Positions 29,723-48,405 of a stretch of 64,000 nt of DNA are shown one piece after another; positions within the stretch are counted from its first letter, which is position 1, and every line of letters starts with the position of its first letter. This DNA is from Deltaproteobacteria bacterium (lineage in GTDB: Bacteria > Myxococcota_A > Polyangia > JAAYKL01), in NCBI GenBank assembly GCA_030595125.1, contig JAUVDV010000005.1:1-64000 (forward strand). Reading direction: 5' to 3'. Below the pieces are notes generated by a model, which saw only the letters and a program-made list of their open reading frames with translations, had not been told where the DNA came from and ran no database searches. The translations under genes were made by a program, and so were the position numbers.

Positions 29723-31132
29723 ATGTCCAGACTGATTTTACTGATGGGGGTTGTGGTTTTGTTTGCAGCGCCGGGTTGTAGCGGGGAGGGCAGTTCTACT
29801 GTCGAGGGTGAGATCGGACCGCAAGGGGAAATCGGGCCGCAAGGAGTGGAAGGGCCCGCCGGACCGCAAGGGGAAATCGGGCCACAGGGAGTGGAAGGGC
29901 CTGCCGGATCGGAGGGGCCTGCCGGTGCTTCCGGAGTAGACGGAGCGGACGGCTTGCCTGGCCCCCAGGGGATTCAGGGTGTTCCCGGAACAGCCGGAGT
30001 GGACGGAGTAAACGGAGTAGACGGGGTTGACGGAGTGAACGGTCTTGGCCTCGTGTGGCTCGGGACCTTTGCGGCTCCTCCGGGGGCGCCTTCGGAAAAC
30101 GACGCTTATTACAATTCGACTGATGGCATCGCGTATGTTTTTGATAGCGTCACCTGGCAAATCCTGGCCAAAGATGGATTGGACGGATTGGACGGAGTGG
30201 ACGGAGTCCAGGGACCGCAGGGGATTCAGGGTGTTCCTGGAACTGCCGGAGTAGACGGCGCCGACGGGGCAGACGGGTCCGACGGCTTGCCGGGGCCACA
30301 GGGGGCTGCGGGGCCGGCCGGGCCTCCTGGGAGCGTGTGGGGCGAGCCAGCCGCCGTCTTCGCCGGGTTTACCACTGGATTGTACGACGGAAATCAAAGC
30401 GGTCATTCAGGTATGAACGCTGTCTGCGACTCGGAGTTCGTCGGCAGTCATTTGTGTCACGTGTCGGAGTACCTCCTTTGCAACTCGGCCACCCCGGCGC
30501 CCGCGCTGGGCGCGTGGGTTGCCGACAGTTGCGGGGTGTCGGGCTTTGGAACGGAGACTACCTTGATAGGCAATCACCTGGCGGGCAAGAGCATCTCCGT
30601 ATCCACCTACCGGAATTGTTACAATTGGACCATCAACGACGCCACCTACACTGGTAATGCAATCACCACTGAGCGGACCACGTACACCGGCAAGAACTGC
30701 GATGTTCCGAGACCTCTGGCGTGCTGTAGCACACCTTATCGGGAGGTCTTTTCAGGCTTCACGAGCACATCGTACACAGGCGACATGGGCGGGCAAGCGG
30801 GAGTACATTTCCTTTGCGGGCTCGATTTTCCCGGGAGTCACATGTGCCACATGGCGGAATACTATCGGGCAAATACAACCAATTTGCCGCCGGCCGACGG
30901 CGCCTGGATCGACAAGAGCGCCGGCTTCAAGATGGGCGCGGGCGGCACCTTCACCACCACCGTCTGCGCCAGCTCCGAGCTGGGACGCTCCATTGCATGC
31001 AGTACCTACAATAACTGCTATAACTGGACCACCAGCGACAACACCTACAGTGGCAACACGGTGACAGAGTTGAATGTCACCTACACCGGCAAGAACTGCG
31101 ACACCCCGCGCCCCATCGCCTGCTGCGAGTAG
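29723..31132 (+). CDS. Collagen-like lipoprotein with duplicated Cys-rich head
   Basis: A 469-residue lipoprotein (lipobox FAAPGC, Cys19). Two Gly-X-Y blocks (about residues 31-106 and 151-203: GPQG, GPAG, GVDG, GLPG units) are separated by a ~45-residue globular insert (LVWLGTFAAPPGAPSEN) like those in phage-tail/collagen proteins. The C-terminal half is two copies of a ~115-residue Cys-rich domain, each with FSGFT...Y.G, GSH.CH.(S/A)EY, CYNWT and a PRP(L/I)ACC end, resembling DUF1554-type lectin-like heads. Gly-X-Y repeats should trimerise into a rod, presenting the heads outward. ACGGAGGTGATTC before the ATG is an excellent ribosome-binding site. Ligand unknown. Confidence 0.88.
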   Translation: MSRLILLMGVVVLFAAPGCSGEGSSTVEGEIGPQGEIGPQGVEGPAGPQGEIGPQGVEGPAGSEGPAGASGVDGADGLPGPQGIQGVPGTAGVDGVNGVDGVDGVNGLGLVWLGTFAAPPGAPSENDAYYNSTDGIAYVFDSVTWQILAKDGLDGLDGVDGVQGPQGIQGVPGTAGVDGADGADGSDGLPGPQGAAGPAGPPGSVWGEPAAVFAGFTTGLYDGNQSGHSGMNAVCDSEFVGSHLCHVSEYLLCNSATPAPALGAWVADSCGVSGFGTETTLIGNHLAGKSISVSTYRNCYNWTINDATYTGNAITTERTTYTGKNCDVPRPLACCSTPYREVFSGFTSTSYTGDMGGQAGVHFLCGLDFPGSHMCHMAEYYRANTTNLPPADGAWIDKSAGFKMGAGGTFTTTVCASSELGRSIACSTYNNCYNWTTSDNTYSGNTVTELNVTYTGKNCDTPRPIACCE

Positions 31133-31238
31133 AGGTATTGGGGTCGCAAACAGTTGGCTATCAAGACGTTTTCTTATCCCCCTCTTCCTTGTCATTTTCG
31201 GGATTTCATCGTCTACTTTCGCAAGGAGGCCGGCTTTC

Positions 31239-32867
31239 ATGCCGCCGAAAAAGAAGATGTCAAAGAGTTTTCACGAGCTGTCGCACTGGATACTGCTCTG
31301 CGCCAACCGGGGGCGTCCCAATATCGATTTTCTCATCGAGATCGCCGGGGAGTTGATCTCATTTCTGGAATGCGACTCTCTTGAAATATGGCTGAATGAG
31401 GGGAGCAGGTGCTCTCGCTGGGGCGGTACGCGAAAACCCAGGCGCCTCTATCGGATGACTGATGTTTCGACTTCTGTGCTTCAGTCGATTCTGGAGGGCG
31501 GGATTGTCTGGACCAATGACGCCGGAAATACTGCGGCTGGTCAATTGGAAAAAGCTCGAACCATGATGCCTGATGATGAGTGTTCGAATGGTCAGTTCCT
31601 GTCCCTGGCGTGTTTCCCTACGACGATCGGTGATGATGACACCGGTTTGATGGTCATAAAGAACAAACAGCGGGATTTTTTTCGCGAAGAAACGCTCACC
31701 CTGTATGAGGATCTGGCCCAGATCCTGGCCATCGCTGTGACCTTTCAGCGAGTGCGCCTCGCGCAAAGAGAGCGAGTCAAAGAGTTGACTTGTCTTTACA
31801 AGATCGGCAAGGCGAGCTCTGCGCCCGGTGATGGAATCGATATTATCCTGCAGCGTATCGCGGACTGCCTTCCCCCCGCCTGGCAATATCCCGAGCTTAC
31901 CTGGGCGAGGATAGTTATCGACGGCAAGACCTACTCGACAAAGGAAAATGGAAAGAAAAGACATTCAATGCGGACCGATGTTCTCGTGGGGGGGAAGCGG
32001 CGCGGTGTCATCGAGGTGATATACGCGGAAGAAAAACCCGATATCGATGAAGGACCTTTCTTGCAAGAGGAACGGAAACTGATCGATCTGATAGGGCGGG
32101 AAGTGGCGATAGCTATCGAGCAAAAGGAAGCCGAGGCCGACCGCTCCAGACTTCAAGAACAGCTCCGACATGCGGATCGCCTGGCCACCATCGGTCAACT
32201 TGCGGCCGGCGTAGCCCATGAGCTGAACGAGCCCCTCGGAAGCAGCCTCGGCTTTGCTCAGCTGGCTCGCAAGCACCCGGATCTTCCCGCGCAGGTCGAC
32301 GAGGATCTTCAGAGAATTGAAGCTTCTTCCCTGCACGCGCGCGAGGTTATTCGCAAGCTCATGCTGTTCGCCAGGCAGGCGCCGCCTGCCAAGACACGCG
32401 TCAACCTGAACCGAGTAGTCGAAGACGGTATCTTCTTTTTGGAAGCGCGTTGCGCCAAGATGGACATCAAGCTGGAATGTCTCCTCGCCCCGGATCTGCC
32501 CGAAATCGTGGCCGACCCGGCGCAGATAAACCAGGTGTTGATCAACCTTGTGGTCAACTCGATCCAGGCCATGCCCGATGGCGGCGAGCTGACGATAAGA
32601 ACAGCGAAAACCGGCGAGGATATCTCTCTTTTCATTTCCGATACCGGCATCGGGATGTCCAGGGACGTTATGCAAAAGATATTCGATCCGTTTTTCACCA
32701 CAAAGGACATAGGAGAAGGCACCGGACTCGGCCTGGCTGTTGTCCATGGGATCGTAATTTCTCACGGTGGTCTAATAAAATTCGACAGCGAGATCGGACA
32801 TGGTACGAAGTGTGAAGTAAAGCTCCCAATAACGGACCCAAATAATGACGCAGAAGAAATCAAATAA
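31239..32867 (+). CDS. Soluble sensor histidine kinase with two GAF-like modules
   Basis: A 542-residue cytoplasmic kinase without membrane segments. The ATG at 31239 follows AAGGAGG; longer frames overlap the preceding lipoprotein gene. Residues ~25-170 and ~177-297 are GAF-like modules. The dimerisation domain has the phospho-accepting His327 in LAAGVAHELNEPLG, followed by the ATPase domain: N-box LVVNSIQAMPDGG, SDTGIGM, FDPFFTTKDIGEGTGLGLA. This is an NtrB-like class of kinase. The next gene, an NtrC-type regulator, begins 23 bases before its stop, so the pair should act together. The second GAF-like module is closely mirrored at the N-terminus of the protein at 42040. Confidence 0.93.
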   Translation: MPPKKKMSKSFHELSHWILLCANRGRPNIDFLIEIAGELISFLECDSLEIWLNEGSRCSRWGGTRKPRRLYRMTDVSTSVLQSILEGGIVWTNDAGNTAAGQLEKARTMMPDDECSNGQFLSLACFPTTIGDDDTGLMVIKNKQRDFFREETLTLYEDLAQILAIAVTFQRVRLAQRERVKELTCLYKIGKASSAPGDGIDIILQRIADCLPPAWQYPELTWARIVIDGKTYSTKENGKKRHSMRTDVLVGGKRRGVIEVIYAEEKPDIDEGPFLQEERKLIDLIGREVAIAIEQKEAEADRSRLQEQLRHADRLATIGQLAAGVAHELNEPLGSSLGFAQLARKHPDLPAQVDEDLQRIEASSLHAREVIRKLMLFARQAPPAKTRVNLNRVVEDGIFFLEARCAKMDIKLECLLAPDLPEIVADPAQINQVLINLVVNSIQAMPDGGELTIRTAKTGEDISLFISDTGIGMSRDVMQKIFDPFFTTKDIGEGTGLGLAVVHGIVISHGGLIKFDSEIGHGTKCEVKLPITDPNNDAEEIK

Positions 32868-34194
32868 GAATCAGGTCGCTGAAAAGGAGTGCATACTCGC
32901 GGTTGATGACTCGCTCGATGCCCTGGAGATTGTCAGGAGAAACTTGACCTCCGGGGGGTATCGGGTCGTCACCGCACGCGGGGTGGCCGAAGCAATAGAA
33001 ACTTTGGGGGCGGAGCGTATCGACCTCGTGATCACAGATCTCAAGATGCCCAAGACCAGTGGGATGGATCTCGTCCGCCATGTCAGGGAGAACTTCAAAG
33101 ACACCGAAGTGATGATGATCACAGGATACGCCACCATCGAAGGCGCGGTCGAGGCGATGAAGATGGGCGCCGAGGAGTACTTGTCGAAGCCGTTTACCGA
33201 CGACGAACTTTTCACGGCCGTGAAGCGGGCGCTCGACAAGTTGCATACACTCAGGATTGCGAGGTCCAGAGCCATTGCCACGCCCAGGACGCCGCAGGGC
33301 TTTATCGGCGACTCCGGGGCAATGGATCGAGTCTACCGCGCCGTAGCAAAGGCCGCCAACTCCAGGGCGACCGTGTTGATCTCGGGCGAGAGCGGCACAG
33401 GGAAGGAGCTCGTGGCCCGGGCGATCCATTACAGCTCCCCGCGCGCGGCTGCGCCGTTCATCGCGGTCAACTGCGGAGGAATCCCGGAAAACCTGCTGGA
33501 AAGCGAGATGTTTGGGCATATCAAGGGGGCATTCACCGGCGCGATTGAGACCAGGGCGGGGTTCTTCCAGACAGCGGATGGCGGGACGATCTTTCTCGAC
33601 GAGGTGAGCGAGATGAGCCTCGCGATGCAGGTCAAGTTGCTCCGCGTGCTTCAGGAGCGGGAGATCTGCATGGTCGGAACCAACCGCGTGAGCAAGGTGG
33701 ATGTGCGGGTCCTCGCGGCAACAAACAAGGACCTGGCCGCCATGGTCGCAAAGGGCTCGTTTCGGGAGGATCTCTACTACCGGCTGAACGTCATCGCCCT
33801 CGAACTGCCGCCTCTTCGCGAACGGGACGACGATATCCTCAAGCTCATCACTCAGTTTTCCGAAGAGTACGCGACCGAGGCAGGGCGAAAGACTCCCCGG
33901 TTCTCGGACAAGGCCCTCGATATGCTCCGAAAGTACCACTGGCCCGGCAATGTCCGCGAGCTTCAAAACGTGATCAATCGGCTGGTCGTGATGACCGACA
34001 GTAATATCATCGACATGCCGGATTTGCCTTCCCTGATGCGCGGCAATCACATCAAGCAGACCGGCTTCAACCGCCCCCTTGCCGAGGTAGAGGCCGAGCA
34101 CATTCAGAACGTCCTGGCGAGTGTGGACGGAAACAAGACCCGGGCCGCCGAGATCCTGGGTATCGATCGCAAGACCCTCCGCAAGAAACTCTGA
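32845..34194 (+). CDS. Sigma-54-dependent response regulator, NtrC family
   Basis: A 449-residue activator. Residues 15-130 are a receiver with phospho-acceptor Asp65 (VITDLKMP). Residues ~150-385 are the AAA+ domain: GESGTGKE Walker A, HIKGAFTGA (the loop that contacts sigma-54), GGTIFLDEVSEM Walker B, and an arginine-finger region DLYYRLNVI. The C-terminal Fis-type helix-turn-helix (GNKTRAAEILGIDRKTLRKKL without its ends) binds enhancer DNA. It is paired with the overlapping histidine kinase gene. A sigma-54 promoter match lies 143 bases after its stop, in front of the Fe-S/flavoprotein operon, which is thus the most likely target. Confidence 0.95.
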   Translation: MTQKKSNKNQVAEKECILAVDDSLDALEIVRRNLTSGGYRVVTARGVAEAIETLGAERIDLVITDLKMPKTSGMDLVRHVRENFKDTEVMMITGYATIEGAVEAMKMGAEEYLSKPFTDDELFTAVKRALDKLHTLRIARSRAIATPRTPQGFIGDSGAMDRVYRAVAKAANSRATVLISGESGTGKELVARAIHYSSPRAAAPFIAVNCGGIPENLLESEMFGHIKGAFTGAIETRAGFFQTADGGTIFLDEVSEMSLAMQVKLLRVLQEREICMVGTNRVSKVDVRVLAATNKDLAAMVAKGSFREDLYYRLNVIALELPPLRERDDDILKLITQFSEEYATEAGRKTPRFSDKALDMLRKYHWPGNVRELQNVINRLVVMTDSNIIDMPDLPSLMRGNHIKQTGFNRPLAEVEAEHIQNVLASVDGNKTRAAEILGIDRKTLRKKL

Positions 34195-34201
34195 CGTCCC
34201 A

Positions 34202-34290
34202 GGCCGGGAAAATTCTCCCCGGTGGGTCGAAATTCCCCGGCCGATCGGTCTTTCTATTTCGTGGCGGTTCGCTCCTGGAGTGTTTTTTTT
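34202..34290 (+). terminator. Possible rho-independent terminator region after the regulator gene
   Basis: Two structures follow the stop codon. An inverted repeat with GGCCGGG-type arms lies at 34202-34214/34231-34242, and a short 5-bp stem with a CTG loop (34270-34282) runs straight into eight T (34283-34290). The second has terminator form but a weak stem, so partial read-through is possible. Confidence 0.4.
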
Positions 34291-34336
34291 AACTAAAGTT
34301 CAATGAATTCGGGGCCTCGCTCCTTCGCGCAATTGC

Positions 34337-34352
34337 TGGCACGCGGGCTGCA
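34337..34352 (+). promoter_or_regulatory. Sigma-54 (-24/-12) promoter
   Basis: TGGCACGCGGGCTGCA matches the sigma-54 consensus TGGCACG-N4-TTGCA at all but one position. The invariant GG (34338-34339) and GC (34350-34351) are exactly 10 bases apart. It lies about 90 bases before the first ATG of the Stn-like operon and just downstream of an NtrC-family activator gene. Confidence 0.75.
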
Positions 34353-34440
34353 TAGCTCACCAGCGGAAGTTGACCAGGAAAACCTTTGAAATATAACTAT
34401 CAAAACGTGCATCAATCGAAAAGACCGGGAGGGGGGGGTG

Positions 34441-34650
34441 ATGTTCTGTGAAGAGTTCGACGATCGTGCCCCTGTTGATAAGAATGGGAAAAAGTTGGAA
34501 AGCGAAAAGAGCGATACGGCGATCGCCTTGCCGGAAAAGACGAAAGATGCGAGTAAGCGCCGGGGGCTTTGTGTGAGCTGCCTGCACCGCGAAACGTGCA
34601 CTTTCCCGATCGTCGAAGGCGGCGTCTGGCATTGCGAAAAATACGAGTAG
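34441..34650 (+). CDS. Small Cys-rich protein heading the Fe-S/flavoprotein operon
   Basis: A 69-residue hydrophilic protein. ATG at 34441 is preferred to the GTG just before it because GGAGG lies 8 bases upstream. The first 40 residues are charged and probably disordered; the last 28 have four Cys in LCVSCLHRETCTFP and VWHCEKYE (C-x2-C-x5-C...C), a likely zinc or Fe-S site. It is the first gene after the sigma-54 promoter and lies 13 bases before the NuoE-like gene. I do not recognise a named family; an assembly or regulatory role for the complex is inferred from position only. Confidence 0.7.
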   Translation: MFCEEFDDRAPVDKNGKKLESEKSDTAIALPEKTKDASKRRGLCVSCLHRETCTFPIVEGGVWHCEKYE

Positions 34651-34663
34651 GGAGGTCAATCGA

Positions 34664-35551
34664 ATGGTTGAACGGGCTGTACAACCGCTCAAAGAAAACG
34701 ATGAAGTGACTCCGGAACGGATCCGGAAGATCATCGACAAGCACGAAGGCGCCCTGGGTGGTCTGATCGCTATTCTGGAAGGGGTCCAGGCGCAATTCGG
34801 ATATCTTTCCGAGAAGGCGTTGGGGATAGTGGCGCAAGAGACCGGTCGTTCCCTCGTCGATATATACGGCGCGGCGACCTTCTATCATTCGTTCACCCTG
34901 AAGCCACGGGGCAAGCACGTCGTTTCCGTATGCGTGGGCACGGCCTGTCACGTGCGTGGCGCGCCCGCTATCGTGAGCGAGTTTCAGCAGCGGCTTGGAA
35001 TAGAAGTGGACGAAACCACGGAAGACAAGGAGTTCACTCTGAAGACGGTGAACTGCCTCGGGGCATGCGCGCTCGGGCCTGTCGCCGTGATCGACGGCCG
35101 GTATTTTTCCAAGCTGAAAAAATCCGACGTCGAGAAGCTGCGCCACGATGCCCAGGAGGGCTATGACAAGGCTGAAGGCGAAGAAGACCCGAGAATCTTC
35201 CCGGTCGATGTCGGCTGTCCGTTTTGCAATCACAGCTTCATGGACAGTGGTTTCTACATCAACGGCCGCCCGTCTATTCGGGTAACAGTGTCGTTTGGTG
35301 ACAAGCACGGCTGGTTCAGGATGTCCTCGCTGTACGGCAGGTACGACATCTTCTCCGAATACGATATTCCCGTTGACACGGTATCCCACTTTTTCTGCCC
35401 GCATTGCCATGCGGAGTTGATCGGCTCCTGGGAATGTTCATCGTGCGAGGCGCCGATGGTGCCGATGCTTGTTCGTGGAGGAGGAACGATTCGGATTTGC
35501 TCTCGCAGCGGATGTACAGGATCGGACGGCCACATGTTGGATTTGAGGTGA
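34664..35551 (+). CDS. NuoE-like [2Fe-2S] thioredoxin-fold subunit with zinc-ribbon-like extension (StnA-like)
   Basis: A 295-residue subunit. Residues 15-160 are the NuoE/HndA fold: four cluster ligands Cys90, Cys95, Cys131 and Cys135 in CVGTACHVRG and CLGACALGP hold a [2Fe-2S] cluster. A C-terminal extension of about 120 residues carries Cys pairs CPFC, CPHC, CSSC and a final CSRSGC, which look like zinc-ribbon or rubredoxin-like knuckles and are absent from standard NuoE. GGGAGGT precedes the ATG. It is followed by the NuoF-GltD fusion and NuoG-N-like genes. The order and domain set match the Stn-type transhydrogenase, where this subunit passes electrons next to the FMN subunit. Confidence 0.88.
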   Translation: MVERAVQPLKENDEVTPERIRKIIDKHEGALGGLIAILEGVQAQFGYLSEKALGIVAQETGRSLVDIYGAATFYHSFTLKPRGKHVVSVCVGTACHVRGAPAIVSEFQQRLGIEVDETTEDKEFTLKTVNCLGACALGPVAVIDGRYFSKLKKSDVEKLRHDAQEGYDKAEGEEDPRIFPVDVGCPFCNHSFMDSGFYINGRPSIRVTVSFGDKHGWFRMSSLYGRYDIFSEYDIPVDTVSHFFCPHCHAELIGSWECSSCEAPMVPMLVRGGGTIRICSRSGCTGSDGHMLDLR

Positions 35552-35632
35552 GCGGCGCGGTTTCGTGATTTTTAGAAACAATTGCGAAAAAAACAGCGCG
35601 TGCCGAAAAACAGAGAAGCGGAAGTTGAAGAC

Positions 35633-38600
35633 ATGAAGCAAATTCAATCAATCGACGATTTTGGAATGCTGAGTAGTCGTTTGCACGGAGACAGGGATAT
35701 GGAGATCCCTACAATAGTCATCTCGGCCGGTACGTGCGGGCAAGCATGCGGCGCCAATGACTTAATACGGATAGTCAAACGTGAAATTATTTCAAACGGG
35801 CTACTGGGAAAGGTCGGGTTGCGAGTTACGGGGTGTCACGGATTTTGTCAGATAGAGCCGTTGATGTTGATAGAGCCGGCGGGGACGCTATATCCAAATG
35901 TTGAGATGGATGATGTGGCGAGAATTGTCGAGGCCGTTGTCAACAACGACATAGTTGAGGAGCTTCTTCCCAGAGATCCGGAAAGCGGGAACCCCATAAC
36001 ACAGGAAAGCGATCTGCCTTTTTATAGAAATCAAAGAATGACGATATTGGAGCGAAATAAGAAAATAGATCCAATCAAGATATATGATTACGTCGTGTGG
36101 GATGGGTACAAGGGGCTGGCTTCATTGCTGGCCAAATCCGAGCCGAAAGAGGTGGTCGAGGAGGTCAAACGTTCCGGTATAAGAGGTCGCGGCGGCGCCG
36201 GGTTTTCCACCGGAATGAAGTGGGAGTTCCTGTCCAGACAGCCCGGCGACAAGGGCAAATTTCTGGTATGCAATGCGGATGAAGGCGATCCCGGCGCCTA
36301 CATGGATCGCAGCATCCTCGAGGGAAATCCGCACAGCATTATCGAGGGGATGATCATCGGGGCGTACGGCACAGGTGCCACCAGGGGCGTCATATATGCG
36401 CGTGCCGAATATCCTCTGGCGATAAAGCATCTGACCATCGCGCTTCGGCAAGCTCGCGATCTGGGTGTTCTGGGCGAGAATATATTGGGGACCGGGTTCT
36501 CCTTTGACATCGACATAGTGAGAGGCGCTGGGGCGTTTGTTTGCGGCGAGGAGACCGCGCTCATACGCTCGATCGAAGGAAAGATGGGCGAGCCGCGTCA
36601 GCGACCCCCGTTTCCCATAACAAAAGGTATCCACGGCAAGCCGACCGCGATCAACAATGTCGAGACATGGGCCAATGTCCCCGTGATCTTCAGGCTAGGG
36701 GCAGGGGAGTATGCAAAGGTAGGAACAAAGGGCAACTCAGGTACCAAGATCTTCAGCCTCGTGGGCAAGATCAAGAACACCGGGCTGGTCGAGGTTCCCA
36801 TGGGCACGACCATCGGAGAAATTGTTTTCGACATCGGTGGCGGATCACCCGGAGATGCCAGGATCAAGGCCGTGCAGACGGGAGGGCCTTCGGGCGGCTG
36901 CATCCCCGTTGAAAAATTCGATCTTCCCGTAGATTACGACAGCCTTGCCAAGGCCGGATCGATCATGGGCTCGGGCGGCATGATCGTGATGGACGAGAAC
37001 ACCTGCATGGTCGACGTGGCCAAGTATTACATGAACTTCCTCAAGGACGAGTCGTGCGGCAAGTGTTTCTCATGTCGCAAGGGCACCCAGCGGATGTACG
37101 AGATCCTGGACGGCATCTCAAAGGGAGAAGGTACACTTGATGATCTGGACCTCCTCGAGGAGCTGGCCATAGCGGTCAAGGACTCGACAATGTGTGGCCT
37201 GGGACAGACCGCGTCCAACCCGGTCCTGAGCACGCTCAAGTATTTCACGGAGGAGTACCGGCGCCACATCGTGGACAAGAGATGCGACGCCCTCGTATGC
37301 AAGGAGCTGACAGGAGCGCCTTGCCAGGCGACGTGTCCGGTGGGAACCGAGGCCTGGCGTTACATTGCGCATATCGGAAAGGGAGAGTTCGAGAAGGCCT
37401 ATCTGGCCATCAGAGAACCGAACCCGTTCCCGTCCGTTTGCGCGCGCGTCTGCAATCACCCGTGCGAATCGAGATGCCGCGCGGGGGAGAGCGGCGGCGA
37501 GCCGATCGCGATAAGGGCTCTCAAACGTTTTGTTACAGACCGTGTCGATCCGGGCGCCTACAAGCCGATGCGCCTCGTGAAAAGCGATCCCAAGATGCCA
37601 GGGATCGCGATTGTAGGCTCCGGGCCGGCCGGTTTGACTGCGGCCCATGGGTTGTCGCTTATGGGATATAAGGTCACGATTTTCGAAGCAGAGGATAGTC
37701 CCGGAGGCATGTTGACGGCGGCCATTCCGGCCTATCGCCTGCCTCGCGAGGTGCTGCAAAAAGAGATCGATTCGCTCATCGACGAGAATGTCACGCTCGA
37801 ATGCAACCGCGCGTTGGGCCGTGACTTCACCCTCCAGGAGCTGTTGGACGACGATTACAAGGCGGTCTACCTGGCGATGGGCGCGCACAAGAGCAGACGA
37901 CTCGGGCTGGCGGACGAAGACGCAAAGGGTGTGCATCCGTCTATCAATTTCCTGAAGGCGTTCAATCTGCGTGGCGAGAGTCTGGTAGAAGGCCGTGTCG
38001 GGGTCGTGGGCGGCGGCAACTCGGCGATCGACGCAGCCCGGGTGGCGCTTCGGCAGGAAAAAGTGGACAGCGTCACGATTCTGTATCGCAGAACCCGCGA
38101 GGAGATGCCCGCTTTCCCCGAGGAGATAGACGCCGCGCTCGAAGAGGGGATAGAGCTTGTTACACTGGTCACCCCTGCAAAGATCCTCTCCAGGGACGGG
38201 CAGCTGGAAGGAATCGAATGTCTCAGGAACGAGCTCGGTGCTTACGACTCGAGCGGTCGCAGAAGGCCGATCCCGATCGATGGGTCGGAGTACACAATCC
38301 CGCTCGACAACCTGATCGTGGCCATCAGCGAAAGTTCCGATCTGGACTGCGTTGAGGGGTCCGGCGAAGCAAAGATCGACACAGCTGACAATGACCGAAT
38401 CAAGGTTAACCCCAAAACGCTCTGCACAAACCTGCCAGGCGTATTTGCCGGCGGGGACGTTACGACCGGTCCGTCCACCGTGGTAGAGGCCGTCGCTGCG
38501 GGCAAGAAGGCCGCAGTTGTGATCGACCGTTACGTCCGAGGTGACGAACTTGAACAACCTGCTTCTCCGGTTGTTCCCAAGATCTACATAGAGCCCGGGG

Positions 38601-38812
38601 CGTCTGTCGATGAAGAGAGCGAAGCATCGCGGCCTCGGCAGCCGGAGATTTCCGCAGAGTCGAGAAAACGCGGTTTCGAAGAAGTGGAGCTGTCACTGAC
38701 AGAGGAGGATGCGATTCGCGAATCATCCAGGTGTCTAAGGTGCGATCTTGAATTCACCAGGCCGAATCAGGATGAGGTTGAAAAATCGACAGCAGAAAGC
38801 AAACCGGCATGA
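35633..38812 (+). CDS. NuoF-GltD fusion flavoprotein (StnB-like)
   Basis: A ~1059-residue fusion. Residues 25-110 are a thioredoxin-like [2Fe-2S] domain (Cys35/39/68/72). Residues 125-545 are NuoF/HydB-like: FMN/NADH-binding GRGGAGFSTGMKWEF, GEETALIRSIEG and a [4Fe-4S] site SCGKCFSC plus Cys521. Residues 551-970 are GltD/NfnB-like: two Fe-S motifs (CQATCPVG; CARVCNHPCESRC), FAD loop VGSGPAGLTAAHGL and NAD(P) loop VGGGNSAIDAARVALR. A last CLRC motif ends the chain. Pairing an NADH-type FMN site with an NfnB-type FAD site suggests flavin-based electron bifurcation among NADH, NADPH and ferredoxin. The start at 35633 has GGAAG upstream; an upstream TTG in frame is possible. The stop overlaps the next ATG (ATGA). 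Confidence 0.9.
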   Translation: MKQIQSIDDFGMLSSRLHGDRDMEIPTIVISAGTCGQACGANDLIRIVKREIISNGLLGKVGLRVTGCHGFCQIEPLMLIEPAGTLYPNVEMDDVARIVEAVVNNDIVEELLPRDPESGNPITQESDLPFYRNQRMTILERNKKIDPIKIYDYVVWDGYKGLASLLAKSEPKEVVEEVKRSGIRGRGGAGFSTGMKWEFLSRQPGDKGKFLVCNADEGDPGAYMDRSILEGNPHSIIEGMIIGAYGTGATRGVIYARAEYPLAIKHLTIALRQARDLGVLGENILGTGFSFDIDIVRGAGAFVCGEETALIRSIEGKMGEPRQRPPFPITKGIHGKPTAINNVETWANVPVIFRLGAGEYAKVGTKGNSGTKIFSLVGKIKNTGLVEVPMGTTIGEIVFDIGGGSPGDARIKAVQTGGPSGGCIPVEKFDLPVDYDSLAKAGSIMGSGGMIVMDENTCMVDVAKYYMNFLKDESCGKCFSCRKGTQRMYEILDGISKGEGTLDDLDLLEELAIAVKDSTMCGLGQTASNPVLSTLKYFTEEYRRHIVDKRCDALVCKELTGAPCQATCPVGTEAWRYIAHIGKGEFEKAYLAIREPNPFPSVCARVCNHPCESRCRAGESGGEPIAIRALKRFVTDRVDPGAYKPMRLVKSDPKMPGIAIVGSGPAGLTAAHGLSLMGYKVTIFEAEDSPGGMLTAAIPAYRLPREVLQKEIDSLIDENVTLECNRALGRDFTLQELLDDDYKAVYLAMGAHKSRRLGLADEDAKGVHPSINFLKAFNLRGESLVEGRVGVVGGGNSAIDAARVALRQEKVDSVTILYRRTREEMPAFPEEIDAALEEGIELVTLVTPAKILSRDGQLEGIECLRNELGAYDSSGRRRPIPIDGSEYTIPLDNLIVAISESSDLDCVEGSGEAKIDTADNDRIKVNPKTLCTNLPGVFAGGDVTTGPSTVVEAVAAGKKAAVVIDRYVRGDELEQPASPVVPKIYIEPGASVDEESEASRPRQPEISAESRKRGFEEVELSLTEEDAIRESSRCLRCDLEFTRPNQDEVEKSTAESKPA

Positions 38813-39486
38813 TTAATTTGACGATCAACGGGTTGAAGGTTTCGATCGAGGACGGATCGACGGTTCTTGAAGCCGCGCAATTCCTGGGTTTTCCCATCCC
38901 CACGCTCTGTCACATGGAAGGCCTCGAGCCGTACGGCGCCTGCCGCCTCTGTCTGGTGGAAATCGGAAAAGCGCCGAATGCAAAATTGGTTTCTTCGTGC
39001 ACGTATCCGGCGCAAGAAGGACTCGTCGTTCGCACGGCGTCCTCGCGCGTCTTGAAGGCGCGCAAGATGGTCATCGAATTGCTTCTGGCGAGCTGCCCTC
39101 AATCGAAGGTGATTCAGGACATAGCGGCGGCTCACGCGGTGAATCAGCAACGCTTCAAGCAGGAGCACGAGGACTGCATCCTTTGCGGGCTGTGCGTGCG
39201 GATGTGCAAGGAGCAGATGATGGCTGGCGCAATCGGCTTTCGGGGCAGGGGCGAGAACCGTAGTCTGGGTACGCCGTTCGATGCGAAATCCGAGGAGTGT
39301 CGTTTTTGCGGCGGCTGTATGTATGTCTGCCCTGCGTGTCAGCTCAGATGCACCTTTAACGAACCGGAAAAGGCGATCTGCGGTGGTTGTCAGAACCTTA
39401 GCCCCCCTTGCGTGGAAGAAGAAAAGTTCGACGACATGATGTGCTACATGTCGCCCTGCGTCGCCTGTGAAATCGATAAGTCGTGA
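38809..39486 (+). CDS. NuoG N-terminal-like ferredoxin subunit (StnC-like)
   Basis: A 225-residue Fe-S protein. Residues 1-80 are a plant-type [2Fe-2S] ferredoxin domain with ligands Cys34, Cys45, Cys48 and Cys64 (LCHMEGLEPYGACRLC...SSC). Residues ~117-190 hold two [4Fe-4S] motifs (CILCGLCVRMCK; CRFCGGCMYVCP) with additional C-terminal Cys (CGGC, CYMSPCVAC) that may carry a further cluster. It lacks the molybdopterin-like or hydrogenase catalytic domain that follows in NuoG or HydA, so it should serve as the ferredoxin-facing electron entry or exit of the complex. Its ATG overlaps the stop of the NuoF-GltD fusion, implying matched synthesis. Confidence 0.88.
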   Translation: MINLTINGLKVSIEDGSTVLEAAQFLGFPIPTLCHMEGLEPYGACRLCLVEIGKAPNAKLVSSCTYPAQEGLVVRTASSRVLKARKMVIELLLASCPQSKVIQDIAAAHAVNQQRFKQEHEDCILCGLCVRMCKEQMMAGAIGFRGRGENRSLGTPFDAKSEECRFCGGCMYVCPACQLRCTFNEPEKAICGGCQNLSPPCVEEEKFDDMMCYMSPCVACEIDKS

Positions 39487-39509
39487 TTTTCAAAAAGGAG
39501 TAAACCGCA

Positions 39510-41090
39510 ATGTCATTTTCAAAAGTCAACCGTTCTGCGGCAACACTGAGCAAGAACAGAACCGAGGATTCAATCCATCCGGGTTCGGGTATGTGCACCA
39601 CCTGCGTGGACGGTTGCATCGGCATGTGTGAAATCGGTAAGTCCGCGTATCGTGGTCACGAGGTGATCTATCCCCAGCCGTTTGGAGTGATAACAACGGC
39701 GTCTGAAAAGGATTACCCGGTGGACTACTCGCACCTCAACATAATCGGTGGAGTCGTCGGCGCCCAGGGCATCGAAGCGGACAGCGACAAGGCGGTCTTC
39801 CCGGCCGTGGATCTCGAGGTGCGCTTTGGCCACGACGACGGATTGAAGTTCCGTTTGCCGATCATGATCCCGGGCATCGGATCGACCAACATCGCAAAGA
39901 ACAACTGGGAAGGTCTCGCCATCGGAACGGCCCTCGCCGGCACCGGCCTGACCATCGGAGAGAACGTCGTGGGCATGGATCCCGAGTCGGTCTTCAAGAA
40001 CGGCAAGGTTGTGAGCGCGGTTGATCTCAAGAGGCGGGTCAAGCTGTTCAAGGATAACCAGATCGACGGCTACGGCGCGATTGTCGTCCAGGCCAATGTG
40101 GAAGACACGAGGTTGGGCATTCAGGAGTACGCCATCAATACCCTGGGCGCCGAGGTCGTGGAATTGAAATGGGGCCAGGGCGCCAAGAACATCGGCGGCG
40201 AGGTCAAGATCCGCGATTTGAAAAAGGCCCAGATGCTCTACGATCGCGGTTATGTGGTGTTGCCCAACCCAACCGATCCCACTGTGATCGAGGCCTTCAA
40301 GCGCGGAGCATTCAAGGAGTTCGAGCGCCATTCCAGGGTGGGCATGGTCACCGAAGAGGGCTTTGCAAAGCGAGTGGAAGAACTGCGCAAGGCCGGCGCA
40401 AAGTACATCTTCCTGAAAACCGGCGCGTACAGGCCTGAGGCGCTGGCGATGGCTATCTCCTTCGCATCGAAATACAAAATTGATTTGCTCACGGTGGACG
40501 GGGCCGGCGGCGGTACGGGAATGAGCCCTTGGAGGATGATGAACGAGTGGGGCATCCCCCCGGTGGAACTACACTCGCTTCTCTATCAATACGCCAAGCG
40601 CCTGGACGACAAGGGAGAGCACGTGCCCGCGATCGCAGTGGCCGGCGGTTTCACATTCGAGGACCAGATGTTCAAGGCCCTGGCCATGGGCGCGCCCTAT
40701 GTAAAGCTGGTTGGCATGGCCCGCGCTCCCATCGCGGCCGCCATGGTGGGCAAGACGATCGGCAAGGCGATCCGCGAGTACAACCTGCCGGTATACGTGG
40801 AGCGGTTCGGCAACAACATCGACGAGGTCTTCGTGACCGCCGCACATCTTCGCAAGGAGATGGGCGACAAGGAGTTCGACAGCCTCCCGACCGGGGCGAT
40901 CGGGCTCTACACGTACTACGAGCGCCTCGGGCAGGGCCTGCGCCAGCTCATGGCCGGAAGCCGCAAGTTCGCTCTGAAGTACATGACGCGGGACGACCTC
41001 ACGTGCCTGACAAAGGAATCCGCCGAGATCACCGGCATCCCTTACGTGATGGATCTCGACAAGAAGAGAGTGGACGAAATTCTCGGTTAA
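39510..41090 (+). CDS. FMN-binding glutamate-synthase-like protein (GltB central domain, no glutaminase domain)
   Basis: A 526-residue protein equal to the FMN/Fe-S synthase domain of GltB, as in the archaeal-type stand-alone subunit. Core motifs are IMIPGIGSTNIAKNNWEGLAIG, VVELKWGQGAKNIGGE (the GQGAK motif), LTVDGAGGGTGMSPW and AVAGGFTFEDQMFKALAMGA. The N-terminus has an unusual four-Cys motif CTTCVDGCIGMC (Cys29/32/36/40), a possible [4Fe-4S] site. There is no N-terminal amidotransferase domain to release ammonia from glutamine. AAAGGAG precedes the ATG. As last gene of the sigma-54 operon, its electrons could come from the GltD-like part of the preceding fusion. Whether it makes glutamate is unproven. 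Confidence 0.9.
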   Translation: MSFSKVNRSAATLSKNRTEDSIHPGSGMCTTCVDGCIGMCEIGKSAYRGHEVIYPQPFGVITTASEKDYPVDYSHLNIIGGVVGAQGIEADSDKAVFPAVDLEVRFGHDDGLKFRLPIMIPGIGSTNIAKNNWEGLAIGTALAGTGLTIGENVVGMDPESVFKNGKVVSAVDLKRRVKLFKDNQIDGYGAIVVQANVEDTRLGIQEYAINTLGAEVVELKWGQGAKNIGGEVKIRDLKKAQMLYDRGYVVLPNPTDPTVIEAFKRGAFKEFERHSRVGMVTEEGFAKRVEELRKAGAKYIFLKTGAYRPEALAMAISFASKYKIDLLTVDGAGGGTGMSPWRMMNEWGIPPVELHSLLYQYAKRLDDKGEHVPAIAVAGGFTFEDQMFKALAMGAPYVKLVGMARAPIAAAMVGKTIGKAIREYNLPVYVERFGNNIDEVFVTAAHLRKEMGDKEFDSLPTGAIGLYTYYERLGQGLRQLMAGSRKFALKYMTRDDLTCLTKESAEITGIPYVMDLDKKRVDEILG

Positions 41091-41159: not shown

Positions 41160-42023
41160 ATGACTCGCTGTTTTTTTGTCTCCGATCTGCACGGGTTCCA
41201 GGATCGATATCGCAAGCTCTTCGATGTGATCCTCGATGAGGCACCCGGGGCGGTTTTTATGGGCGGAGATTTGCTTCCATCCGGCCTGCTTCCCGAGACA
41301 TCGACAGAGGCCTGGCATCAGGATTTTGCAAACGATTTCCTGGCAAGGGAGTTGGAGAAGCTCAGGGTCGATATGGGAACGCGTTTTCCAAGGATCTTCG
41401 TGATCATGGGAAACGACGACCCTCGTTTTCATGAGCCTTCGATGCAGGCGGTGGCGGCAAGAGGCTTGTGGGAGTACATCAACGAACGGCATGTGTCCCT
41501 GGGTGAGTACTCCATTTTCGGGTATTCGTACGTTCCGCCTACACCGTTTCGCTTAAAGGACTGGGAGCGTTACGATGTCTCCAGATACGTGGATCCGGGC
41601 TGCGTGTCACCGGAAGAGGGGGCGAGATCCATCCCTGTCACCGAGTCCCAGGCGAGGTATTCCACCATCGCCGGGGATCTTAAATCTCTGATTGACGGAT
41701 ATGACCTCGATAACTCTGTATTTCTCTTTCATTCTCCGCCGTACAAGAGTGTTCTCGATCGTGCCGGGCTCGATGGGAAAATGATAGATTACGTGCCTCT
41801 GGACGTGCATGTGGGCAGCATCGCGATACAGCGGTTCATTTCGGAGATGCAACCTTCAATTACACTTCACGGCCATATTCATGAGTCCGTCAGGATTACA
41901 GGATCGTGGCGGGAGCAAGTAGGGCGAACTCATGTCTTTGGAGCCGCCCACGACGGGTCTGAACTCGCCCTTGTGAGGTTTGATCTGGAAAACCCGCAAG
42001 ATGCAACTCGCGAATTACTTTGA
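41160..42023 (+). CDS. Calcineurin-like metallophosphoesterase
   Basis: A 287-residue cytoplasmic protein with the full metallophosphoesterase motif set in order: FFVSDLHG (Asp-x-His), FMGGDLLPSG (Gly-Asp), IMGNDDPRF (Gly-Asn-Asp), LFHSPPYK (His) and TLHGHIHES (Gly-His-x-His), forming a dinuclear metal site. Family members hydrolyse phosphomonoesters, cyclic nucleotides or other phosphodiesters; the substrate here is unknown. It follows the glutamate-synthase-like gene by 69 bases, may have its own promoter, and its stop faces the convergent gene at 42040. Confidence 0.88.
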   Translation: MTRCFFVSDLHGFQDRYRKLFDVILDEAPGAVFMGGDLLPSGLLPETSTEAWHQDFANDFLARELEKLRVDMGTRFPRIFVIMGNDDPRFHEPSMQAVAARGLWEYINERHVSLGEYSIFGYSYVPPTPFRLKDWERYDVSRYVDPGCVSPEEGARSIPVTESQARYSTIAGDLKSLIDGYDLDNSVFLFHSPPYKSVLDRAGLDGKMIDYVPLDVHVGSIAIQRFISEMQPSITLHGHIHESVRITGSWREQVGRTHVFGAAHDGSELALVRFDLENPQDATRELL

Positions 42024-42039
42024 GGAGATCTCGTGTGTG

Positions 42040-45000
42040 CTATTCCTTCTTGAGCGGAAGCTGTAGCGCCGCATCGGTGACGGCTCCGATCTTTATGGCG
42101 AAGCTGCTGCGTTTCTCGATGTCCTCGTCGGTGATGATATGCACGTCCAGCAAGCCATCGCTGCGACTGCCCGTCTTCAGGTAGTTCAACTCATCGAGGC
42201 AATTACTCCATCCCTCCAGCCAATGCTCCAGCTCCCGTCGCTGCTGTTCGTTACCGCTGAAATGGATCAGGAGATCTACATCGCTTGCCGGCCCTGCCGT
42301 GGCGTTCTTGGTGCTGCCAAAAAGATATATGCCATCGACTCCGTATCGCTGAGCGTCGAGGGTGGCGCCAATTCTTTCGGCCATTCTGTGACGCCATTTC
42401 CAATGATCCTCAATTTCGAGTCCCCTGCTTTCCATTGACTCGTCTTCGTAGGCGACGGGCGACTCGGGTGGACAAAGAATTCCTACCGCTTCTTCCCTGG
42501 CCGCGTTCATCAGAATTCTGAGTATTTTTCCATCGGTCACTTTTTGGATGTCGATGACCTTTATAACTTTTTCCAGATCCCCAAACTGCGGCAGGATGTT
42601 CTTGAGGAGGTTTGGTGAGTTCGAGAGGAAATCTTCGTTGAAGGAAATGCCCTTGTCGTCCGGATAGAGCGGCAGATAGCGGATAGATGCCTCTACCAGA
42701 TCCTGGAAGAAATGCGTGCCAAAGGAAAGATCCGGGACATAGGCGCCTTTCTTGCGCGCTATCTCGATGAGCACCGCCGTGTTGTTGATGTCCGAATATG
42801 TTACTCGAATACCCAGTTTGATATCACCGCGACTCCCCCAACGTCCCGGCCCCATCAACACGAACTGTCGTTTGGGCAGCAGCTTGTTCAGCTGACCTAT
42901 CGCCATTCCGACCGACACCAGCGAAGAATGATCCTCGAGTTTTCCGTATTCGTCCGGCGAAACGTAGACTACGTGAGTGATGTCCGGGATTCGCCCATTC
43001 GATATGTACTTGTTCGCGCTAAAGAGAAGGTTCTCAGGGGGGATATGTTTGGGTATCTGGGCACTCTCAACGTCCATGGAATGGCTCTGTGGCCGACATT
43101 GAAGGAGGTACAGGACGTTTCCCACCGAAGCGAACTCGATATCTACAGGAGTACCCATGGATTCTTCGAGTGTCTGGAGAATCGCGCGCATCTGTTTTAG
43201 AAACGGCGTGTTGCGAAAGAGCCCTTCAAAGGTGATGACGATGTCATCCTCTCGATAGTCGGTGGTCAGCGCGTTTGGCGCCTTCAATCTGTCGTCGCTG
43301 TATACTGAAACTATTTGTTCTATCTGTGGGAATTCGTTTCCGAGATCACGGATGATGGAGGAAAATTCCATGGTCTGGAACTTGTTGTTTACGAGATCAA
43401 TTACATCCAGGTATTTCGGCGAGTACCTGACCATGTCTTCAAATGATGCATTTACTCGCAGGCGCGGCTGTCCCGGAGCGGCCAACACCGGATAATCATC
43501 GGTCAGCCTGTCAACAGCGCGAGTTCCGAGGCCGGGTACAATTCGAACAAGACCGTCCTCGCGTCTGATTCTCGACGACCAACGGAACTCATTGTTGCTG
43601 AATGATACTCCGGCAAAGGATGGCAAGAAATAGTTACCGGCCCGTGTTCCCACTACCTCCTGGATCATGATCCCCATCTCTTCAAAGAAATCAAGGAGAC
43701 CTCGTTCGGCTCTGTACTCAATAGGGTCCGGGCCGAACGTGGAGGCGTATACCTCGGCGATGGCGTCCATGAGCGCTTCGAGGCGAGCCTCCTTGTCACC
43801 CTGGTTCGCGAGAAATAGGCTCTTGTATTTACCGGAGAAAGCAGAACCGAGTCTGTCCTCCAGAAGGCTGGAACTACGTACTATCAGAGGCACATCTCCA
43901 AAGTCGTCCAGAGCCATGGAGAGGCCCTTTTTCATCTCCTGGGGGAAGTGTAAGTTCTTGAACACCTTGACGAGGTGTGGATACTCCTGGCGAACCTCTT
44001 CTACGGTTTTGTATTTTTGCTCGTGAACGTCCTCGATGGCGTTGAACCTGACGAACTCCAACAATCCATCGGAGGCCACGTACCAGGTTTTTGGGACGCG
44101 AATTTCACCGAGATCACCAGTGTGATGATTGTTGTTTTGCAGGATTTTGTTTGCGAGGAACAAGCCGGCACTCTTGCCGCCCAGCTTTCCGTTGCTCCCG
44201 GCGGGAGAGACCATTCTCCCCACCAGTTCGAAGAAATCCTCAATCTCTACGTGGTTCTTTGCGATATTGATGAACTCAAGTTGATCGGTAAAGAAACGCC
44301 TTGTCAGGGAGACGCATGCGCTCGCGAGCGCGGAGCGAGGCAGTTCGGATTTATCATGGACAAGATGTTGATACTTCATCAGCGCGTCGGTGATGGTGGA
44401 GAGTGGGGCGTGTGCGTTGACCAATGATCTTACCAGGAAGCCGGACTTGTCCTCGCCGATCCACTTCTTGATAGAGGCCAAAATTTCCAGATCGCTCAGG
44501 TATAACGTGGCGATCCGGAAGGCCTCCTCGCCAAGCGAAACAAGACCTTCTGTGTCGGTCTTCTTCAGGGGCTGGTTGGTTTCCCCGATGACGCCATCTG
44601 TCCACATACCCCCACCATATCTCGCAAGCAGAGACTCGGCCTCATCCACCCCGCGCCAGCACAGGTGATTCATCATCTTTCGAATGATCCTGCCGAAGAG
44701 GTTGGGATCGGTTTGCCACATGAGATCCAGTGCGAGACGCCATTCTCCGCGATCCCCGCCATTGTTTCTCTGAGGGGTCCTGGACAACACCCGGAACATC
44801 TCTCTGGTTTGTTGGTGAAGAATGAAGTGTCCGAGGCGATCTGCGATTGTCTCAATGAGCTTGGATTCCTCCTTGAGAAAAGGCCCATCGTCAGCTGGTG
44901 GTCGGTCTTCGTTGTATGAAACCAGGAGTCTTCCGCTCAGGGATTCACCAGCGTAAATATCCGCGCATTGCGTCCACTGCGTCTCCTTGAATCCTGTTGT

Positions 45001-45237
45001 CTGATAGGTCTCTTCGTTATGAGATATCTGAGCCTGACAAATGTCCGAATACTGCCAACCAGGAGGAATCACCTCCACTACCATTTTGAAAATATCGCCC
45101 AGTGACCTGTTGGGATCAAAGAGCACTTCTTCCACAGCATAAAGACATGACAGTTCTTTGGCGCGTTCCTGGAGCGTTGAAAGAAGACTACCCACCGCCC
45201 GTGTAGTCCGGCTGTGATCGTTGTCGTGCTCAGTCAT
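42040..45237 (-). CDS. PPDK-type ATP-grasp protein with N-terminal sensory module and C-terminal nucleotidyltransferase domain
   Basis: A 1065-residue protein. Residues 21-145 match the second GAF-like module of the histidine kinase at 31239 (ER.KEL.CLY, WQY, then DDGPFLKEESKLIETIA). Residues ~340-740 are the ATP-grasp domain of PEP synthase/pyruvate phosphate dikinase (NGKLGGKSAGLFLANKIL, IVRSSSLLEDRLGSAFSGKY, IMIQEVVGTRAGNYFLP, YLLQCRPQS). A linked region has VLMGPGRWGSRGDIKLGI. The C-terminal ~130 residues form a nucleotidyltransferase domain (IYLFGSTKN...SDVDLLIHF). I see no phosphohistidine swivel or PEP-binding barrel, so it is not a normal PEP synthase. The start overlaps the next gene upstream by 8 bases. 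Function unknown; regulatory phosphotransfer or nucleotidylation is possible. Confidence 0.82.
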   Translation of the reverse strand: MTEHDNDHSRTTRAVGSLLSTLQERAKELSCLYAVEEVLFDPNRSLGDIFKMVVEVIPPGWQYSDICQAQISHNEETYQTTGFKETQWTQCADIYAGESLSGRLLVSYNEDRPPADDGPFLKEESKLIETIADRLGHFILHQQTREMFRVLSRTPQRNNGGDRGEWRLALDLMWQTDPNLFGRIIRKMMNHLCWRGVDEAESLLARYGGGMWTDGVIGETNQPLKKTDTEGLVSLGEEAFRIATLYLSDLEILASIKKWIGEDKSGFLVRSLVNAHAPLSTITDALMKYQHLVHDKSELPRSALASACVSLTRRFFTDQLEFINIAKNHVEIEDFFELVGRMVSPAGSNGKLGGKSAGLFLANKILQNNNHHTGDLGEIRVPKTWYVASDGLLEFVRFNAIEDVHEQKYKTVEEVRQEYPHLVKVFKNLHFPQEMKKGLSMALDDFGDVPLIVRSSSLLEDRLGSAFSGKYKSLFLANQGDKEARLEALMDAIAEVYASTFGPDPIEYRAERGLLDFFEEMGIMIQEVVGTRAGNYFLPSFAGVSFSNNEFRWSSRIRREDGLVRIVPGLGTRAVDRLTDDYPVLAAPGQPRLRVNASFEDMVRYSPKYLDVIDLVNNKFQTMEFSSIIRDLGNEFPQIEQIVSVYSDDRLKAPNALTTDYREDDIVITFEGLFRNTPFLKQMRAILQTLEESMGTPVDIEFASVGNVLYLLQCRPQSHSMDVESAQIPKHIPPENLLFSANKYISNGRIPDITHVVYVSPDEYGKLEDHSSLVSVGMAIGQLNKLLPKRQFVLMGPGRWGSRGDIKLGIRVTYSDINNTAVLIEIARKKGAYVPDLSFGTHFFQDLVEASIRYLPLYPDDKGISFNEDFLSNSPNLLKNILPQFGDLEKVIKVIDIQKVTDGKILRILMNAAREEAVGILCPPESPVAYEDESMESRGLEIEDHWKWRHRMAERIGATLDAQRYGVDGIYLFGSTKNATAGPASDVDLLIHFSGNEQQRRELEHWLEGWSNCLDELNYLKTGSRSDGLLDVHIITDEDIEKRSSFAIKIGAVTDAALQLPLKKE

Positions 45238-46957: not shown

Positions 46958-46992
46958 GTTTCTGCTTTTGCTGTCATCAATACGATCAGTGC

Positions 46993-48279: not shown

Positions 48280-48405
48280 GGCCTTGTTCCTTTCCCTGGA
48301 TCTCCTGCATTTGGAGTGGGTAAAAAACGTTGTCATGAGCATAGCGGTGACGCCGGTCGGGCGCAAGGATACTGGTGGCAGATGTGGACGAAATCTTCGG
48401 CTAGT

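Follow-up and report, generated by a model that had tools for sequence, protein, structure and literature searches.

The window analysed here comprises the first 64,000 nucleotides of contig JAUVDV010000005.1 (GenBank assembly GCA_030595125.1, Deltaproteobacteria bacterium), and at positions 34337–41090 it carries a putative sigma-54 promoter followed by an operon of five genes on the forward strand. The first gene encodes a small Cys protein of 69 amino acids (34441–34650) with a Cys-rich C-terminus (LCxxC...C...GGVWxCE). Next come a NuoE/HydC/StnA-like [2Fe-2S] subunit with an extra, Zn-ribbon-like C-terminal part (34664–35551; Pfam 2Fe-2S_thioredx), a NuoF-GltD fusion (about 35627–38812), a NuoG-N-like, BfuA-like electron-transfer subunit without a catalytic domain (38809–39486), and a GltB-like FMN-barrel subunit of 526 amino acids (39510–41090; Pfam PF01645, E = 2.8e-17, and alignments). 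The fusion and the NuoG-N-like subunit were assigned from Pfam and PDB matches, and for the fusion also from conserved Cys residues. The reading frame of the fusion is open from a TTG at 35582, with an ATG at 35627, and its stop is overlapped by the start of the NuoG-N gene. These coordinates bear out the gene order given in an earlier sequence-only reading of this DNA.

Relatives were collected with the GltB-like protein by a scan of one genome per species, and the best 80 of at least 583 confirmed stretches were kept. They span 77–97% identity, the range to which the gene contexts reported here apply (those below 77% lie outside the sample), and the window itself is not counted among them. 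Their record titles mark every one of them as a metagenome-assembled genome, and the groups represented include Myxococcota/Deltaproteobacteria, Zixibacteria, Planctomycetota, Calditrichota, Ignavibacteria, Latescibacterota, Neomarinimicrobiota and Acidobacteriota. The operon is sparse in the host's phylum, where 4 of 377 drawn genomes, the host included, match at E ≤ 1e-30; viral contigs scanned with the GltB-like alignment gave no match. The NuoG-N gene lies directly 5′ of the GltB-like gene in 80/80 loci, with a gap of at most 60 bp in 73, and upstream of the GltB-like gene NuoF is found in 77 and NuoE in 67 of the 80. In every locus without NuoE the contig ends within 3.6 kb upstream of the GltB-like gene. 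The expected synteny of the GltB-like gene with its partners is thus upheld. Median identity of the relatives to the window is 79% for the GltB-like and NuoG-N proteins, 63% for NuoF-GltD and 57% for NuoE.

In the fusion, residues of about 30–562 make up a BfuB/HydB/StnB-like NADH-FMN core and residues of about 554–1040 a GltD-like NAD(P)H-FAD domain with a DPD_II 4Fe-4S region. Residues 30–562 match HydB and StnB chains end to end, N-terminal thioredoxin-like domain included, with E-values of 5e-198 for 7t2r_B (a NiFe enzyme subunit), 2e-188 for HydB 7q4v_B and 2e-173 for 8oh5_B; NuoF of complex I gives about 1e-105. Complex1_51K and NADH_4Fe-4S score over their Pfam cut-offs, and SLBB reaches 22.7 bits, below its cut-off of 27, so that the FMN, SLBB and NADH 4Fe-4S regions and the thioredoxin-like N-domain of a BfuB protein can all be recognised. 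Conserved in 68/68 sequences (the window and 67 relatives) are the B1-type residues C477, C480, C483 and C523, C70 and C74 of the N-domain, and C553 and C558 of the linker. The NuoE-like protein supplies the [2Fe-2S] subunit, BfuC, within the operon; its nearest solved chains are HydC-type (8a6t_C, HydC, and 7t2r_C). Both proteins also match StnA and StnB, with HydC- and HydB-type chains scoring higher. For the GltD part the nearest solved chains are 9bov_A, 9n5u_A and 8oh5_C (Stn- and NfnA-type); we take 8oh5 and 9bov to be Stn-type entries from their three chains. As a separate observation, the C-terminal extension of the NuoE-like protein (about residues 165–295) has Cys pairs that look Zn-ribbon-like by eye and no Pfam match; most relatives match it, but in L080, L086 and L106 the match does not include it.

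The C-terminus of BfuB proteins carries a 2[4Fe-4S] ferredoxin-type domain (B3/B4), and in the window DPD_II and GltD stand there instead. Among the 77 relatives with a NuoF match this end is GltD in 59 and a two-cluster ferredoxin motif without GltD in 18, the 17 complete proteins of the ferredoxin form being 616–636 amino acids long. Since the NuoG-N and GltB-like genes follow NuoF in both forms, the constant pair is the NADH core and the GltB-like gene, with GltD and the ferredoxin domain as alternative ends. On the GltB tree the two states change 14 times (mean of shuffles 16.4), at least 6 of the changes being required by branches with good support; on the BfuB-core tree they change 10 times. 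The exact number is soft, since both trees are quick ones in which many branches are weak. For this count the BfuB rows were trimmed to 545 residues, and 17 rows were assigned GltD from the length of the open reading frame or the range of the match; a first count, with those 17 rows unassigned and the BfuB rows still holding the first residues of the swapped part, gave 14 and 3. On the GltB tree 35/500 shuffles were as low as the observed value, so that the two states are hardly clustered, and these trees do not support a single switch between GltD and ferredoxin. The exchange suggests that this end marks the docking place of the low-potential partner, which would be NADP(H) in the window and ferredoxin in others.

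This arrangement bears on the earlier claim that the first three large subunits match Stn, the Sporomusa-type Nfn or NADPH/NAD/ferredoxin transhydrogenase of S. ovata (PMC7483475, PMC10482914). As far as those accounts describe Stn, the locus has in common with it a GltD domain and proteins like StnA and StnB. In Stn, however, it is a long NuoG that bears GltD, and StnB retains a ferredoxin domain at its C-terminus (PMC10482914), whereas here GltD sits on NuoF in place of that ferredoxin domain, the NuoG part has 225 residues and no long NuoG/FdhF-like domain, a GltB-like gene is added, and GltD is absent from 18 of 77 relatives. The claim is not supported by this comparison, and membership in Stn was rejected on architecture (GltD placement, short NuoG, no StnB-type ferredoxin domain). 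A looser version would keep an Stn-like transhydrogenase with the GltB-like protein as an add-on fed directly by GltD, as in ordinary glutamate synthase (GOGAT). The nearest solved chains of the GltD domain (9bov_A, NfnA-type and StnC) and the StnA and StnB matches speak for it, but we consider it very improbable: the 18/77 relatives without GltD on NuoF keep GltB, which means that the complex is not in general a transhydrogenase with GltB added, the NuoG part is short and the ferredoxin domain replaced, and the GOGAT route, as described in PMC8097209, runs through a [3Fe-4S] cluster whose ligands are missing here.

The NuoG-N protein (225 amino acids) keeps the 2Fe-2S and dicluster regions, with Fer2_4 and Fer4_7 over their cut-offs, and so has the 2Fe-2S and 4Fe-4S ferredoxin-type domains of a BfuA subunit; no Pfam catalytic domain was matched in it. 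Its nearest solved chain is 9mqx_A, a NuoG-like chain of 247 amino acids from an entry of which the literature searched makes no mention, followed by HydA1 (8a6t_A) and StnC. Past the dicluster, and mostly outside the matched domains, six further Cys residues (C177, C181, C191, C194, C201 and C212) are invariant in 23/23 sequences. With cluster motifs and no active-site domain of its own, the protein looks like an electron wire.

The GltB-like protein has a single Pfam family, Glu_synthase (PF01645; score 63.4 bits, cut-off 20.4), matched in part, over profile positions 185–303 of 369 or about a third. In an alignment of 40 sequences, column identity averages 87%; the N-terminal CxxCx3Cx3C residues C29, C32, C36 and C40 are invariant and could hold a [4Fe-4S] cluster, and no Cys past C40 is invariant. 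The stretch K220-W-G-Q223-G-A-K226...GG aligns with KxGQGAK..GG of short GltB proteins, the DGAGGGTG loop aligns too, and the profile alignment with those proteins has a probability of 98.7%. We take Lys, Gln and Arg residues to have roles in 2-oxoglutarate binding in Synechocystis Fd-GltS; the Arg equivalent did not align cleanly. It could be argued that the GltB-like protein is a separate enzyme, merely co-transcribed with a four-gene NADH:NADPH(ferredoxin) oxidoreductase. In favour of this, the complex is a prediction from the genes, and NuoG-N and GltB are encoded separately, their matched ends lying 11 bp or more apart in 80/80 loci. Against this stand the unbroken adjacency of the two genes in many phyla, with or without the regulator and GltD, and a short NuoG-N that would otherwise have no active-site partner in the operon. 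The extra invariant Cys residues of NuoG-N and those of the GltB N-terminus could moreover form a wire between the two. We therefore regard the separate-enzyme explanation as quite improbable.

A gene for glutamate dehydrogenase (GDH; Pfam ELFV_dehydrog) lies nearby at 46993–48366, on the strand opposite to the operon and outside its transcript. GDH genes occur in 12/80 loci (14 open reading frames by clustering, six of them checked with Pfam) against 0.3–0.6 genes expected on a rough estimate, which takes the loci as independent though they are related and assumes 1.5–2.5 GDH copies, near the number observed, in 3–4 Mb. These neighbours belong to at least two subfamilies. NADP-specific GdhA is above cut-off in L071 and in one of the two genes of L106; the other five scanned, the window's included, match archaeal- or halophile-type models below cut-off. 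In L106 the operon is flanked by one GDH of each subfamily. The earlier proposal of a coupling to nitrogen assimilation gains from these recurrent neighbours a link to glutamate metabolism, the assimilatory role itself remaining conjectural.

Seven of the 80 loci, all those titled 'chromosome', come from chromosome-level hosts; these carry no completeness figure or measured background rate and lie outside the host's group. The GXGXG domain of GOGAT was found in 0/7 of them and not in the window's own genome (G000), against 13/14 control genomes, and the GltB-type glutaminase PF00310 in 0/8 (the seven chromosomes and G000), against 12/14 controls. The host genome, 95% complete, has neither PF00310 nor PF01493. 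Four of the seven chromosomes have one further weak Glu_synthase match (E between about 1e-5 and 1e-4) in open frames some 500 amino acids long, presumed to be IMP dehydrogenases. In one of the seven, a Phycisphaerales chromosome (G411), no GDH of the PF00208 or PF05088 families was found and the sole Glu_synthase match lies inside the operon.

Taken together, the operon may encode a soluble Bfu-family (HydABC-like) complex, Glt-Bfu, whose third reaction would be the reductive amination of 2-oxoglutarate or an analogue at a glutaminase-free glutamate-synthase barrel. We hold this tentatively, at slightly less than an even chance, and we infer both catalysis and bifurcation by the operon products from their sequences. 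The FMN of BfuB would oxidise NADH and send one electron through the clusters and NuoG-N to the Cys4 motif and FMN of GltB, where 2-oxoglutarate, or a closely related 2-oxo acid, would be reductively aminated with ammonia to glutamate; the second would go uphill to NADP+ in the GltD form or to ferredoxin in the ferredoxin form. The glutamate/2-oxoglutarate couple has a redox potential of about −0.13 V, well above NADH, so the GltB branch would be downhill and could pay for the uphill electron. In topology this would be bifurcation of the ordinary sort; the high-potential partner would be new. Alternatively electrons may flow by confurcation, with NADPH or ferredoxin as co-donor.

Several observations weigh against this assignment. 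That all five proteins form one complex is something we infer from the genes. The [3Fe-4S] Cys residues of GOGAT are gone, CHTNNCPVGIATQ of short GltB aligning with ...LPVYVERFG, and Pfam finds neither a glutaminase (PF00310) nor a GXGXG (PF01493) domain in the 526 amino acids, so that of the features of a GOGAT alpha subunit the Glu_synthase FMN domain is present and the other three are absent. The GltB-like profile aligns weakly with canonical GltB (probability 24.5%), and a PDB sequence search with the GltB-like protein, single and as a profile, matched no solved chain. An AlphaFold2 model made with 39 close relatives is poor (predicted local distance difference test score, pLDDT, 58.7); with it Foldseek places lactate/glycolate oxidase, FabX and IMP dehydrogenase with or above glutamate synthase, which has rank 9. 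The window's GltD form is without the B3/B4 ferredoxin domain, an absence that PMC11406978 associates with lost bifurcation in S. wolfei HydABC. GDH neighbours are rarer where the NtrC-class regulator described below is present (1/37 loci, against 8/21 without it). The Phycisphaerales chromosome has an alanine dehydrogenase-like gene, another route for ammonia. In the host's own group canonical GltB occurs in 4/8 operon genomes: two are clear (G007 and G040), one has a partial GXGXG (G050) and one a strong PF01645 match at a contig end without GXGXG (G014). Replacement of GOGAT by the operon gives no signal in that group, GXGXG being found in 3/8 operon genomes (one of them partial) and 24/51 operon-free ones.

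Canonical GOGAT identity was rejected for the GltB-like protein on the missing [3Fe-4S] Cys residues and glutaminase. With no glutaminase, the nitrogen would come from ammonia itself or from another amine. In GOGAT, as described in PMC8097209, GltD feeds the FMN through the [3Fe-4S] cluster; with its ligands gone, electron entry to the GltB-like FMN must differ, and most simply it would take place at the N-terminal Cys4 motif fed by NuoG-N. The same losses leave room for a Bfu-type complex whose GltB-like third subunit acts on another substrate (an imine, a 2-oxo acid or a hydroxy acid), GDH then sharing only a nitrogen or amino-acid context. The fold search also points this way, as do a second structure search with the model, in which glutamate synthase is absent from the 50 rows, and the lack of any NCBIfam family for the protein; at this level the model fits only the FMN-type barrel superfamily in general and does not single out glutamate synthase. 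Glu_synthase as sole Pfam match, the retained KxxQxxK..GG stretch and GDH neighbours from two subfamilies argue the other way, and we judge a different substrate to be unlikely, if still a serious contender.

Apart from the GltB-like subunit, a close parallel is found in the Type 2 enzymes of the Bfu family (Schut et al. 2022, PMC9304861), which, by that paper's main text, share the NuoE/NuoF-like core, a short BfuA-like wire and an extra catalytic subunit in the operon. Relatives of the ferredoxin form share the BfuB ferredoxin-type domain too, whereas the window's BfuB has GltD where that domain sits. In the main text of PMC9304861 GltB and GltD have 0 occurrences, the third reactions of its Table 1 include no amination, and 17 BfuB clades have no assigned function. 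A NuoF-DPD_II-FAD fusion replacing B3/B4 has been described from Hydrogenedentota as sub-type I BfuB and assigned to putative [FeFe]-hydrogenases (PMC11406978), a likeness drawn from that description; those enzymes have an H-cluster BfuA, whereas here the BfuA has no H-cluster domain and is followed by the GltB-like gene. NADPH-glutamate synthase (GltBD/GOGAT; PMC8097209, in the part consulted) shares the GltD module and the FMN synthase barrel; unlike it the operon has no glutaminase, GXGXG or [3Fe-4S] site and has an added NADH core and electron wire. In the literature searched (PMC7483475, PMC10482914, PMC9304861, PMC11406978, PMC10134865, PMC6037941, PMC6349859 and PMC8097209 among it; supplements not covered) no description was found of a GltB-like subunit united with a NuoEF/HydBC core. 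The sequence-only reading, which knew of no system joining these parts, agrees with this search on the union and needs a caveat for the NuoF-DPD_II-FAD fusion, which is already published. Within that literature, what appears to be new is a GltB-like protein as third subunit of a Bfu-type enzyme.

By the prevailing view, ammonia is assimilated mainly through the glutamine synthetase–GOGAT pathway and GDH. A bolder form of the proposal would make the operon an electron-bifurcating glutaminase-free glutamate synthase in which amination with NADH pays for the reduction of NADP+ or ferredoxin. In several phyla, bacteria that are presumably anaerobic and have lost GOGAT would use it as a main reductive route of ammonia into glutamate (one Phycisphaerales chromosome among them shows no GDH of the two tested families either), and the ferredoxin/NADPH terminus would have been swapped repeatedly on an otherwise fixed machine. 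Taken whole, we find this doubtful. If true, uncultivated bacteria would have a further, energy-coupled way of assimilating ammonia, which would be of consequence for nitrogen cycling in sediments, and amination would enter the Bfu family, whose published third-reaction table (PMC9304861) has none. It may be through this operon that some microbes without ordinary GOGAT make or use glutamate. The exchange of a ferredoxin domain for an NADPH-FAD domain at one place in an otherwise constant complex would be a natural test of where Bfu enzymes send the low-potential electron.

Upstream of the operon lie a sensor histidine kinase gene (31074–32867, forward strand; GAF, HisKA and HATPase_c by Pfam) and a gene for an NtrC-class response regulator (32845–34194, forward strand; receiver, sigma-54 AAA+ and Fis-type helix-turn-helix by Pfam) with an intact GAFTGA, as the sequence-only reading had it in calling this an NtrC-family activator. 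The regulator scores below the NCBIfam cut-offs for both TIGR01818 ntrC (429.6 against 558.6 bits) and AtoC (442.3 against 714) and so is of the NtrC class and not NtrC itself. The putative promoter, TGGCACGCGGGCTGCA, is a −24/−12 type element at 34337–34352 on the forward strand (TGGCACG-CGGG-CTGCA), with GG at 34338–34339 and GC at 34350–34351 and ten bases between them, confirming the spacing noticed earlier. Scores were taken against a literature consensus, TGGCACG-N4-TTGCW with GG and GC required, which is not a calibrated matrix. In the window eight sigma-54-type matches have at most two mismatches against 8.9 expected, which is chance level, and the element at 34337–34352 is the only one of the eight with one mismatch. 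The case for a sigma-54 site rests on conservation, not on this single site.

An NtrC-class gene (at least 55% identity) is present in 37 of the 58 judgeable loci, upstream of the operon in 36 and downstream in one (L081); 21 loci are without it and 22 of the 80 could not be judged. A kinase relative (at least 35% identity) lies 5′ of it in 31/37 NtrC-bearing loci. Sites with at least 10/12 consensus letters within 400 bp upstream occur in 18/35 NtrC-bearing relatives (0.37 expected) and in 0/21 without NtrC (Fisher p = 2e-5); at 9/12 letters or more the figures are 25/35 (2.6 expected) and 1/21. Expected counts come from random 400-bp stretches of the same loci, and this grouping left out the window and loci with too little upstream DNA; a scan with another grouping, the window included, gave 18/36 and 2/24. 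The element thus has the GG/GC pair, the 10-bp spacing, a near-consensus sequence and an activator gene in front, as in a sigma-54-dependent promoter. Relatives of the small Cys protein stand at the same place in 33/35 NtrC-bearing loci and 2/21 of those without; as its presence splits with NtrC in the same way as the site, kinase, activator, sigma-54 site and small Cys protein form one regulatory cassette, carried by many but not all copies of the operon. The control by a two-component system and sigma-54 proposed in the sequence-only reading is supported in this sense, as a conserved arrangement, and in many hosts the two would switch the operon on. The small Cys protein matched no Pfam or NCBIfam family and is possibly a metal-binding or assembly protein. 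The stretch that separates the regulator gene from the sigma-54 site (34195–34336) was scanned for palindromes and holds an imperfect one of 19 bp, CCGGGAAAATTCTCCCCGG (34204–34222), which we offer as a speculative candidate for the binding site of the activator.

Other features of these loci may be noted. In L081 (6374–10077) a kinase, an NtrC-class gene and a small Cys protein lie 3′ of the GltB-like gene, as if leading into a second unit at the contig end. In the window, positions 29723–31132, directly 5′ of the histidine kinase gene, encode collagen-like G-P/x-x repeats behind a lipoprotein-like start. On the reverse strand, 42040–45237 and 45230–47017 encode two PPDK_N proteins (phosphoenolpyruvate synthase-like, ATP-binding), the longer of which begins, by eye, like the GAF region of the operon's histidine kinase; clusters of PPDK_N-type proteins occur in 11/80 loci. 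Finally, a Zixibacteria contig (L034, 5993–15736) repeats window positions 41160–48366, with a metallophosphoesterase, PPDK-like proteins and glutamate dehydrogenase beside the operon, a likeness that suggests the transfer of a larger block between phyla.

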